Source: Anaerolineae bacterium (GTDB taxonomy: Bacteria > Chloroflexota > Anaerolineae > Anaerolineales > Villigracilaceae). From it: a stretch of DNA of 64,000 bases. The first letter of the stretch is position 1. Every line of letters starts with the position of its first letter. The stretch covers positions 1 to 64,000 of the forward strand of contig JAKLPV010000217.1 of assembly GCA_022013685.1 (NCBI GenBank), given 5' to 3'. This document shows, one piece after another, positions 1 through 3,108 of the stretch. A model generated the notes under the pieces. That model ran no database searches. It saw only the letters and a list, made by a program, of their open reading frames with translations, and had not been told where the DNA came from. A program made the position numbers and the translations under genes.

Positions 1-1025
1 AAACGCACTCGCGGAGATTCATAAGCGGTGGGGAAGAAATGGCGTACCCGCGGTGAAACCGGCAAAGTACCTGCACGCCAATGCGGGTAAGTCAGGGTAA
101 TGGTTACTTCATTGGCTTTGGGTGGTTTTTGCTCGGTTTCAGAGAATTCGTCATCCAGTTGGTATTCAAGTTCAAGCATTTGTTCGCTCAACACTGAGCG
201 GTCATAATCGATCGGGTTATATTTCAGGGTTGCCGGTACCTGCTGAACTTCATCAGGCTCAAGGCGTTTCAAGCACCACAAGATTTCGCCAGCCGGGCCT
301 ACTTCGTCGAAACGGCCATCTTCCTGCAAGGCATAATTCAGCGAAAACTCAAGCAGGTTGCGGCTGACACCGTCTGGCGCATCGATTTGTTCCATCAGGG
401 ATGAAATCGAAAGCGGATCACCGCCAGCCATCTCAATCACGGCCTCCGCCAGATTAAGATGACCTTCGTTCATATCCACGATCAGGGCGCGCGGGAACCA
501 TTGCCCGGCGCTGCAGATCAAGCTTTCATCGGCCAAAAGGGCCATTTCGAGTTTTTTTACCAGTTCATCGCCATACTGTTCGATAATCGCTTGCGGGTCG
601 GCCTCGGGGTTGGGCGCTTCATCGACCGGATTGTTAAGTTTATGTTCAGGCAGGCAGGCAGCAAACAGGCGCGTAGAGTCGTCGAAAGCAACTTCCAGCA
701 CATCAAAAGCGCCAATTTCAAGATTATTGCCCGGACGAACAGAAAGAACCGACCCTTTACGCCAGTTAAGCGCCGGGAAAACAAGTTTTTGTCCTTTTTT
801 GTAAGTTTCTCTGGGCAGAAAAACCTCGCCATCCCCTTTCTGCTGCTTCGCAAGCGCTTCGCGCTCAAATCGGATACGTTCTTCCACCAGGATGCGCATC
901 ATCTCACGATCTGCAAGTGGAATTTCTGTTTCAAAAAGGTAATTTTGCAGAAAGTCAATGTCACGCTTGGTGACGACAAAATTTAGCCAGTAGTCGGCTA
1001 CGAGTTTCAATTGATTATTGGGCAT
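1..1025 (-). CDS. Conserved hypothetical protein, 3' end cut by the window
   Basis: An open frame runs from an ATG at 1025 on the minus strand to the window edge without a stop, giving about 341 residues. The protein starts MPNNQLKLVADYW and is acidic and soluble, with no signal peptide or membrane segment. Around residues 200-250 a helical stretch (ISSLMEQIDAPDG followed by SRNLLEFSLNYALQ) resembles a winged-helix fold, but this is a weak resemblance only. I do not recognise the family. The plus-strand frames across the same bases are shadows: the minus frame is uninterrupted and has normal amino-acid composition. It is divergent from aspS, and the two promoters appear to overlap at 1117-1146. 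Confidence 0.75.
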   Translation of the reverse strand, partial: MPNNQLKLVADYWLNFVVTKRDIDFLQNYLFETEIPLADREMMRILVEERIRFEREALAKQQKGDGEVFLPRETYKKGQKLVFPALNWRKGSVLSVRPGNNLEIGAFDVLEVAFDDSTRLFAACLPEHKLNNPVDEAPNPEADPQAIIEQYGDELVKKLEMALLADESLICSAGQWFPRALIVDMNEGHLNLAEAVIEMAGGDPLSISSLMEQIDAPDGVSRNLLEFSLNYALQEDGRFDEVGPAGEILWCLKRLEPDEVQQVPATLKYNPIDYDRSVLSEQMLELEYQLDDEFSETEQKPPKANEVTITLTYPHWRAGTLPVSPRVRHFFPTAYESPRVR

Positions 1026-1116: not shown

Positions 1117-1146
1117 ATTATACCCCAAGATAGTTTGTGCTATAAT
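1117..1146. promoter_or_regulatory. Overlapping divergent promoters (hypothetical gene / aspS leader)
   Basis: On the plus strand TATAAT lies at 1141-1146. On the minus strand TATAAT lies at 1122-1117. Each -10 box falls where the other promoter's -35 box should be, 17 nt away: plus-strand TTATAC at 1118-1123 and minus-strand TTATAG at 1145-1140. The -35 matches are poor. The arrangement implies that the two polymerases cannot bind together. Confidence 0.5.
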
Positions 1147-1155
1147 TAGCTCACT

Positions 1156-1245
1156 ATGCGCGGACTCTTCAGATTTGCAAAAGATGCCAATAATTTCCTG
1201 CTGGCCGACTGGTGTCAGGTCAGCGGGGTAGTTCTGTCTGTCTAA
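1156..1245 (+). CDS. Putative aspS leader peptide (29 aa)
   Basis: The ATG at 1156 lies 9 nt after the TATAAT box, with no room for a ribosome binding site, so the mRNA would be leaderless or nearly so. The 29 codons include Asp at codons 10 (GAT, 1183) and 18 (GAC, 1207) and tandem Asn codons AAT AAT at 1189-1194; the stop TAA is at 1243. All of these codons would depend on AspRS if the enzyme is non-discriminating. A transcription terminator follows before aspS. Translation of this ORF is inferred from position and codon content, not from a known family. Confidence 0.5.
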   Translation: MRGLFRFAKDANNFLLADWCQVSGVVLSV

Positions 1246-1304
1246 TCCCGCTCATCTTTTTACATCCAGTCGCCCAAACGCAAATGCGGTGGGCGATATT
1301 TTTT
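1206..1304 (+). promoter_or_regulatory. aspS attenuator: candidate antiterminator and terminator
   Basis: The terminator is CGCCCA (1271-1276) pairing with TGGGCG (1290-1295), with an inner CGCA/TGCG stem, followed by a T-rich run to 1304; aspS starts only 28 nt later. A competing pairing joins CGACTGG (1206-1212, inside the leader ORF) to CCAGTCG (1266-1272), with AGCGGG/CCCGCT (1222-1227/1247-1252) nested inside. The competing stem shares only two bases with the terminator, so mutual exclusion is plausible but not strong. No T-box consensus is present. Confidence 0.5.
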
Positions 1305-1332
1305 GTTAGCACTCATAATTCAGGAGGTCAGA

Positions 1333-3108
1333 ATGTATAAAACTCACACTTGCGGCGAACTACGCCCCGCCCATATCGGCCAAACTGTCACCCTGGCCGG
1401 CTGGGTGCATCGCCAGCGCGATCATGGCGGCGTCACCTTTATCGATCTGCGTGACCGCTACGGGCTGGTGCAGATTGTCGGCGACCCGACCAAAACTGGC
1501 CTGGAAACCATTCAGGATGCGCGCCAGGAATGGGTGCTGCAAATTACCGGTGAAGTCCGCCGCCGCCCGGCAGGCGCCGAAAACCCCAACCTGGCAACCG
1601 GCGAGATCGAAATCGAAGTTAAACAGTGCGAAGCGCTCAACCCGTCCAAACCGCTGCCTTTCCTAATCAATAAAGAAGAAGATGTAGACGAGTCAGTCCG
1701 CCTGAAATATCGCTACCTTGACCTGCGCCGCGAGCGCATGCAGAAAAACCTGATCTTGCGCCACAAAGTGCTCAAGTTCATCCGCGACTACCTGAGTGAA
1801 CGCGAATTCATCGAGGTTGAGACCCCGATGCTGTTCAAGACCACGCCTGAGGGCGCGCGCGATTACCTGGTGCCTTCGCGCACCATCCCCGGCCATTTTT
1901 ACGCCCTGCCGCAATCGCCTCAGCAGCTCAAACAACTGCTAATGGTTGCCGGGATCGATCGCTACTACCAGATTGCACGCTGCCTGCGGGATGAAGACCT
2001 GCGCGGCGACCGCCAACCCGAATTTACCCAGCTCGACCTGGAAATGTCCTTTGTCGAGCGGGATGATGTGCTCGACATGGTCGAAGGTCTTTTTACCAAG
2101 ATGGTGAAGGAAATTCTGCCTGAAAAACGCCTGCTGGCCTCGCCCTGGCCTCGCCTGACCCACGCCGAAGCAATCGAACGCTACGGGACCGACAAGCCAG
2201 ATATGCGCTTCGGTATGCAGGTTTACGACCTGGGCGATATTTTTGCCGCGTCTGAGTTCCGCGTCTTCCAGATGGCGCTCGAAAGCGGCGGCGTGATCAA
2301 GTGTATCGTCGCCCCTGGCTGCTCTGAATATACCCGCAAGGAAGTTGATGCTCTGACCGACTTTGCCAAAACCCAGGGCGCCAAAGGTCTGGCCACCCTG
2401 GCGCTCAGCGCCGAGGGTGTACGTGGCACAGCCCAGAAATTCATCAAGCCCGAAGAAGTGGCCGCCATTCAGGAGCGCACCGGCGCGCAGACCGGCGACC
2501 TGGTGCTATTCGTGGCGGATTCAAAGACTATCGCCAATAAGACCCTCTCTGCGCTGCGGCTTTTATTCCGCGACCGCTTGAACCTGGCCGACCCAAGCCT
2601 GTTGGCCTTTGCCTGGGTGCTCGACTTTCCCATGTTCGAGTGGAGCGAGGAGAACCAGAAATGGGACGCCGCCCACCATCCGTTCACCATGCCCAAGATG
2701 GAAGATTTGCCCAAGTTCGAGACCGACCCCGGCCAGATTCTTTCAGATGCCTACGATATGGTCTTGAACGGATATGAAACTGCCTCCGGCTCGATTCGTA
2801 TCCATCGCAGCGACATCCAGCACAAGGTTTTCGAACTGCTTGGCCTGAGCGACGAAGAGATTCAATCCAAGTTTGGACACATGATCGAAGCCTTCGAGTT
2901 TGGCGCACCGCCTCACGGCGGCATGGCCCCCGGCATCGACCGGCTGGTGATGATCTTTGCTGACGAGCCCAACATCCGCGAGGTGATCGCCTTCCCGAAG
3001 AACCAGGCCGGGCGCGATGTGATGGCCGACGCCCCCTCGCCTGCCAGCGAAAGGCAGTTGCAAGAACTTCACATCCGCGTGGTGGAAGAAGAAAAAAGCG
3101 ACAAATAA
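1333..3108 (+). CDS. aspS: Aspartyl-tRNA synthetase
   Basis: This class II synthetase charges tRNA with aspartate in the cytoplasm. It has 591 residues, the normal bacterial length with the GAD insert. The N-terminal OB-fold anticodon-binding domain starts [12 protein letters not shown]. Motif 2 is seen in [18 protein letters not shown] and motif 3 in [14 protein letters not shown] near the C terminus. The start is the ATG at 1333, preceded by AGGAGG at 1322; an upstream in-frame TTG has no such site. The OB-fold reads RQRDHGG, with His where discriminating enzymes usually have Leu, which suggests a non-discriminating enzyme that also makes Asp-tRNA(Asn) for GatCAB. That specificity is inference. 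A promoter, leader ORF and attenuator-like terminator precede it. Confidence 0.97.

Follow-up and report, generated by a model that had tools for sequence, protein, structure and literature searches.

Probable ribosome-mediated attenuation of aspS through Asp/Asn leader codons in Anaerolineae

Transcription of aspS, the gene encoding aspartyl-tRNA synthetase, is in all likelihood controlled in an Anaerolineae bacterium by ribosome-mediated attenuation sensing both Asp-tRNA(Asp) and Asn-tRNA(Asn). A promoter, a short ORF featuring Asp and Asn codons, an antiterminator strand and a terminator precede the gene and are conserved across the order, which supports the attenuation of aspS proposed in an initial annotation of the same DNA. 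The output of the enzyme is very probably raised when ribosomes stall because charged Asp- or Asn-tRNA is scarce. With less assurance, we favour the wider view that this is a previously undescribed, class-wide attenuator of Anaerolineae, which sums two charged tRNAs and has been reassigned to asnA by means of an Asn-only run.

Organization of the aspS leader region

The window, i.e. the whole stretch of 64,000 nucleotides analysed, hosts aspS at 1333-3108 on the plus strand. The 591-aa product was identified by NCBIfam models (NF001750, 844 bits; TIGR00459, 746 bits), and the ribosome binding site AGGAGGT is located 5' of the start at 1333. A divergent neighbour gene (3-1025, minus strand; product MPNNQLKLVADYWLNF..., at least 341 aa) runs past the window edge. 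The order promoter, 29-codon ORF, terminator and aspS, described in the initial annotation, is read directly in the window. The promoter features the extended -10 element TGCTATAAT (1138-1146, plus strand), with no good -35 upstream in the window sequence; an identical element is found directly 5' of the leader ORF in most relatives. The leader peptide ORF (MRGLFRFAKDANNFLLADWCQVSGVVLSV; 1156-1245, plus strand) lies, as in known attenuators, directly 3' of the promoter. It starts at ATG 1156, within 9 nt of the -10 element, and terminates at TAA 1243-1245. Transcription is predicted to start at about 1153, taken as the usual 7 nt or so past the -10 element; the leader ATG would lie about 3 nt from the 5' end, and the leader mRNA would thus be nearly leaderless, with no Shine-Dalgarno available for the leader ORF. 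The arrangement of TGNTATAAT plus a short ORF occurs once across the 64 kb of the window. A generic promoter/terminator scanner recovered neither this promoter nor the leader terminator on the plus strand.

Asp and Asn are specified by 4 of the 29 leader codons, a bias which is by itself weak evidence, and becomes convincing only through conservation. The codons GAT (Asp, 1183-1185), GCC and AAT AAT (Asn Asn, 1189-1194) form a cluster (1183-1194, plus strand) kept in the genus. Not all the Asp/Asn codons originally regarded as sensors retain this role: GAT and AAT AAT do, but GAC 1207-1209 lies inside the antiterminator strand, and since a ribosome waiting at this codon would hide the strand, GAC is to be considered structural.

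The intrinsic terminator (AGTCGCCCAAACGCAAATGCGGTGGGCGAT followed by ATTTTTTG; 1268-1304, plus strand; -17.6 kcal/mol in the fold) results from the stem AGTCGCCCA...TGGGCGAT, spanning 1268-1297, and the T tract 1299-1304. Two plus-strand segments, denominated strand 2 (TGG-C-CGACTGG-TGT, 1202-1215, from duplex prediction) and strand 3 (1263-1276), make up the putative antiterminator, and the TCGCCCA tract of strand 3 doubles as terminator 5' arm. The core of the duplex is formed by CGACTGG (1206-1212) and CCAGTCG (1266-1272); it may be extended past a C.C mismatch by the pairing of TGG (1202-1204) with CCA (1274-1276), and on the opposite side by TGT/ACA. The region shared by antiterminator and terminator had been set at two bases. 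It includes instead three bases (TCG, 1270-1272), and six if CCA 1274-1276, beyond the mismatch, is counted. An inner antiterminator hairpin (AGCGGGGT...ATCCCGCT; 1221-1252, plus strand) was found by folding, and encloses the leader stop codon; congeners feature the hairpin GGCAGGC...GCCTGCC at the same position. The MFE fold includes also a protector hairpin, formed by strands 1 and 2 (CCTGCTGGCCGAC...GTCAGGTCAGCGGG; 1195-1227, plus strand), whose core pairs are kept in 4 congeners, and which is predicted to hold strand 2 while its own 5' arm is free of ribosomes.

The 1206-1320 region folds at -39.7 kcal/mol, compared with -25.4 kcal/mol in dinucleotide shuffles (z -4.6, 0/200). The switch drawn in the initial annotation is correct in outline. 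In fold snapshots taken before strand 4 exists, the antiterminator has a probability of 0.96-0.99 when the ribosome is stalled at D10, N12 or N13, and of 0.24-0.28 when the ribosome is at the stop; the probability of the complete terminator is then 0.99.

The mechanism suggested by these structures is the following. RNA polymerase would start at about 1153, and a ribosome would begin almost immediately at ATG 1156. If charged Asp-tRNA(Asp) and Asn-tRNA(Asn) are ample, the ribosome would pass GAT and AAT AAT and reach the stop, where strand 2 would in most genera be covered by the ribosome itself, and in the window clade be locked in the protector hairpin. With strand 2 unavailable, the terminator 1268-1304 would form, and transcription would halt upstream of aspS. 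If one of the charged tRNAs is short, the ribosome would wait at the codon cluster, the 1202-1215 segment would pair with 1263-1276, removing the terminator 5' arm, and aspS would be transcribed.

Leader peptides and switches in related genomes

One hundred relatives were searched with the window DNA and then with an aspS profile, and 93 readable aspS upstream regions of the order were obtained; a separate scan yielded 80 named Anaerolineae loci. Leaders were chosen blind to codons, on the basis of the best -10 and the first ATG. By this choice a leader ORF is found at 69 of the 93 aspS upstream regions. Asn and Asp account for 19.5% and 9.4%, respectively, of the residues encoded by the 69 ORFs, whereas each of them makes up 0.9-1.7% when the DNA is read in either of the remaining frames. 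Runs of at least three Asn/Asp residues are present in 58 of the 69 leaders, versus 0.7% of the ORFs in shuffled upstream regions. The in-frame excess of cognate codons, weak in the window alone, is therefore a family-wide trait. Synonymous codons are mixed (AAT 224, AAC 147, GAT 98, GAC 77), which argues for selection on amino acids, not on DNA. Examples of leader peptides in relatives are MAPIRFANNNNNDNNDPCRSVGRSLAG, MNGNISFANNNNNDNDDNPRVVGRSFAG and MKIWRFGNPDNNNNNNAADDLHRAVC; congeners encode MDTFASFFKDDNNNSLLADCCRAGRRILPA, MRELFTTAKDANNSLLAGWCRTGGIVIPA and MLGKLIGLAHITDNNPLPTDWRRGGRLVLPA. In the window genus the clusters (KDANN in the window; KDDNNN, FNDDDN in G002, KDANN and ITDNN) are shorter, yet in every case present; in other genera they are lengthened to longer runs.

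An intrinsic terminator separates leader ORF and aspS in all the 72 leaders examined, and usually begins about 20-25 nt past the leader stop; in relatives aspS lies 67-261 nt past the stop, with the terminator in between. Leaders are found in most families of the order, and are missing in several. Beyond the order, two more families belonging to the class were found to have them, with the clusters NSDDDND (G238) and LIDDNDN (G275), the latter featuring its own GGGGCGGC/GCCGCCCC switch. The conservation in relatives that the initial annotation had called for is thus present through the order, with these two examples elsewhere in the class. No convincing leader was found outside the class in about 35 aspS upstream regions, mostly one per family, and in further loci of the phylum. 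The homologous leader ORF at locus L055 (G015) has a GTG start and zero Asn/Asp codons (MARWLSFFLLKKTALPGG...), and is apparently a decayed sensor. Upstream of aspS in G002:C77 (L315), the leader frame lacks a stop before the terminator and reads through it, possibly because of a single-base change or a sequencing error.

In most genera the codons following the Asn/Asp run are GTTGGGCGA(AGC), encoding VGRS, and GTTGGGCGA is complementary to TCGCCCAAC, the 5' arm of the terminator. A strand located past the sensor codons is hence able to pair with the terminator 5' arm, as in known attenuators, though less extensively in the window clade, where the antiterminator overlaps the lower part of the terminator only. 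The median energy of the duplex is -20.8 kcal/mol in the 72 leaders, versus -14.3 kcal/mol for codon-shuffled ends of the same ORFs, and 47 of the 72 duplexes rank within the best 5%. The distance from strand 2 to the stop codon is mostly 10 nt in the main family, where strand 2 would be covered by the terminating ribosome; in the window clade it is about 30 nt. Compensating changes are found, for example within one genome, in which the second aspS features CCGTTGGGCG/CGCCCAACGG and the first TCGTTGGGCGA/TCGCCCAACG. The pairing of 1206-1212 with 1266-1272, indicated by the initial annotation, similarly recurs in the window genus with G-U and compensating variants (CGGCTGG/CCAGTCG, CGGCTGG/CCGGTCG and CGATTGG/CCAGTCG).

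The terminator 5' arm is predicted to be sequestered with a probability of 0.86-0.90 with a stalled ribosome, 0.41 with the ribosome at the stop and 0.60 in codon-shuffled controls; the p values for the differences, about 4e-10 and 2e-9, are optimistic, as related genomes are counted as independent. When the whole leader is folded to equilibrium, the complete terminator is often favoured in spite of a stalled ribosome, and the states are poorly separated in many genomes. The switch must therefore be kinetic, and snapshots taken before strand 4 exists do separate its states. Statistical support for the antiterminator is modest in the window clade taken alone. Shuffle tests on single genomes are weak (ranks 32, 55, 33 and 8 of 300), and mean sequestration, a measure suited to the main family, is no better than the null. 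A clean stop-codon state was not seen in snapshots of the congeners G003, G036 and G047. The MAFFT/RNAalifold consensus of the clade recovered protector hairpin and terminator, with no covariation term, from only 4 close sequences.

AspRS type, Asn codons and asnA leaders

The window AspRS carries the motifs RDHG and RPAG, whose His and Gly we take, in the light of mutant studies, to be marks of bacterial non-discriminating enzymes. No match to asnS over cut-off was found in the window genome or in the genus (G000-G004), and gatB exceeds the cut-off twice in the window genome (G000:C132:1368-2822 and G000:C74:11754-13238). The estimated contamination of this genome is 5.3%, and one gatB copy may be foreign. 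By the asnS and gatB searches the genome ranks among those without AsnRS and probably with GatCAB, and the premise of a non-discriminating AspRS, on which the initial annotation relied, is supported by residues and gene content. Genomes without AsnRS form Asn-tRNA(Asn) through AspRS and GatCAB (PMC4206432), and the window organism probably converts Asp-tRNA(Asn) into Asn-tRNA(Asn) in the same way, by means of GatCAB. Since AsnRS is missing, GatB is present and AspRS has residues typical of non-discriminating enzymes, Asp and Asn codons would both report on AspRS.

The genomes of many other genera carry asnS immediately 3' of aspS, and the adjacent genes apparently form one operon. Where asnS is a separate gene, the aspS leaders of the genome are still Asn-rich, which the simple model accounts for only in part. 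The idea that aspS leaders lose their Asn codons in the presence of asnS was rejected, as the Asn share is 0.69 with asnS and 0.64 without. Similarly discarded was the hypothesis that stand-alone asnS genes have an Asn leader of their own, as none of 18 asnS upstream regions features one. Most asnS-positive genomes either keep an RDHG-type AspRS or have adjoining aspS and asnS, and this may explain the persistence of Asn codons.

Two AspRS genes, located a few kb apart and each equipped with an Asn/Asp leader, are found in G018 (L147/L148) and G037 (L164/L165). In one AspRS of each pair, encoded near asnS, Phe replaces His at residue 31, and the enzyme may be discriminating. RTFGG replaces RDHGG at residue 31 in nine aspS products, all from asnS-containing genomes (L151, L174, L147, L145, L180, L164, L150, L160 and L152). 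These are candidate discriminating enzymes arisen within the family.

With a covariance model of the leader, 301 genomes from the order were scanned. Matches were located upstream of aspS in nearly all the loci checked, and a few other weak ones correspond to ordinary terminators. In three genomes the match precedes asnA, the gene for asparagine synthetase A. Found in 5 of the 301 genomes, asnA is preceded by a leader in all three f1 copies. The leaders are located directly upstream of the gene (G060:C35:134186-134293, L322/L300; G039:C12:70170-70279, L321; G488:C45:70170-70282, L323), and encode the peptides MFDYSFANFNNNNNNNNAVLRGVGRSASNLQT, MKTSATQFACLNNNNNAPMGVGRSVSGWTT and MFISSFANVSNNNNNGPAGTLGEARRI. 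Their runs contain 18 Asn and 0 Asp, versus 306 Asn and 143 Asp in aspS leaders (Fisher p 0.003; the three asnA leaders may share ancestry). The codon content of the run, Asn only before asnA, Asn plus Asp before aspS, follows therefore the product of the regulated gene. In the same order, an Ile/Leu/Val-rich frame (INLSSLFILVLIIVVLIIKDSL...) and a GC-rich terminator were found upstream of an ilvD-like gene (L316, G484:C17:90955-91036), and judging from the sequence are a probable branched-chain attenuator.

Alternative readings and known systems

The short ORF could be a uORF serving translational coupling or reinitiation, or could encode a functional small peptide, the terminator being a basal attenuator only. 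Leader genes may indeed boost translation through reinitiation in many bacteria (PMC4833913), yet here the leader stop is 67-261 nt away from aspS, with the terminator intervening, and the peptides vary in all but N/D content and the residues encoded by the antiterminator (VGRS from GTTGGGCGAAGC), which makes this reading very unlikely. Stalling might alternatively be caused by translational stress other than tRNA charging, such as that imposed by an antibiotic or by the growing poly-Asn/Asp peptide. Antibiotic-induced leader peptides are generally known to exploit the same RNA logic (an example is in PMC8632094), but in the family described here codon identity tracks the gene, Asn and Asp preceding aspS and Asn alone asnA, and each of the two AspRS paralogues of G018 and of G037 has such a leader. 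We regard this explanation as even less probable than the former.

The least probable alternative is that the terminator is run by a T-box, or another riboswitch binding a ligand or tRNA, and that the short ORF is incidental. In clostridia, T-boxes govern aspS or GatCAB genes, and T-boxes are present in some Chloroflexi (PMC2494555; Saad et al. 2012, 2013, as reported in PMC4206432). Rfam models, the T-box covariance model RF00230 among them, gave no match even at E 5 for the 1000-1400 region, and the rest of the window and six related loci were likewise without a match. What is conserved is moreover an in-frame amino acid content, encoded by mixed synonymous codons, which a T-box would not need. 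Attenuation driven by the charging of the two tRNAs is the preferred reading.

The mechanism is of a classic, known kind. The aspS leader family is likely new, albeit not certainly so. At gathering and at E 5 Rfam has nothing for the window leader, and main-family leaders are similarly unmatched. Leader-peptide control of aspS in Chloroflexi was not found in the literature searched, which reports T-boxes, among which those for ile and trp genes (PMC2494555). The family adds a well-conserved sensor of tRNA charging to a phylum for which that literature names T-boxes only, and connects the codons used in a leader with the indirect route to Asn-tRNA. The Asn plus Asp leaders of aspS and the Asn-only leaders of asnA amount to a natural codon swap, and poly-Asn/Asp leaders provide a simple handle to spot further attenuators in uncultured Chloroflexota.

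As in the attenuators of the trp, his, leu, thr and ilv amino acid operons (Rfam RF00513, RF00514, RF00512, RF00506), a leader ORF rich in cognate codons and mutually exclusive antiterminator and terminator precede a gene for the metabolism of the same amino acid. In contrast to these, the aspS leader controls a tRNA synthetase, involves two cognate tRNAs, shows no similarity to Rfam families, and is near-leaderless in the window clade. The main-family switch, moreover, consists of three strands, and its antiterminator strand lies 10 nt upstream of the stop. The T-box of Clostridium acetobutylicum, as presented in the account of Saad et al. (2012, 2013) given in PMC4206432, also subjects the indirect Asn-tRNA pathway to control by its own product; in that account, however, uncharged tRNA is sensed by direct RNA-tRNA contact, with no leader peptide. 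A cis-regulatory RNA and a terminator are predicted upstream of aspS in Shewanella (PMC2659441) as well, but the element belongs to another phylum and is listed merely as 'tRNA synthetase leader', with no Asp/Asn peptide described. The nearest published analogue found is uORFC-8-2, located before cysS in Rhodobacterales (PMC8632094). This candidate ribosome-mediated attenuator similarly has tandem cognate codons, acts on a gene for an aminoacyl-tRNA synthetase and is limited to one order, and differs from the aspS leader for its Cys codons, phylum, sequence and structure.
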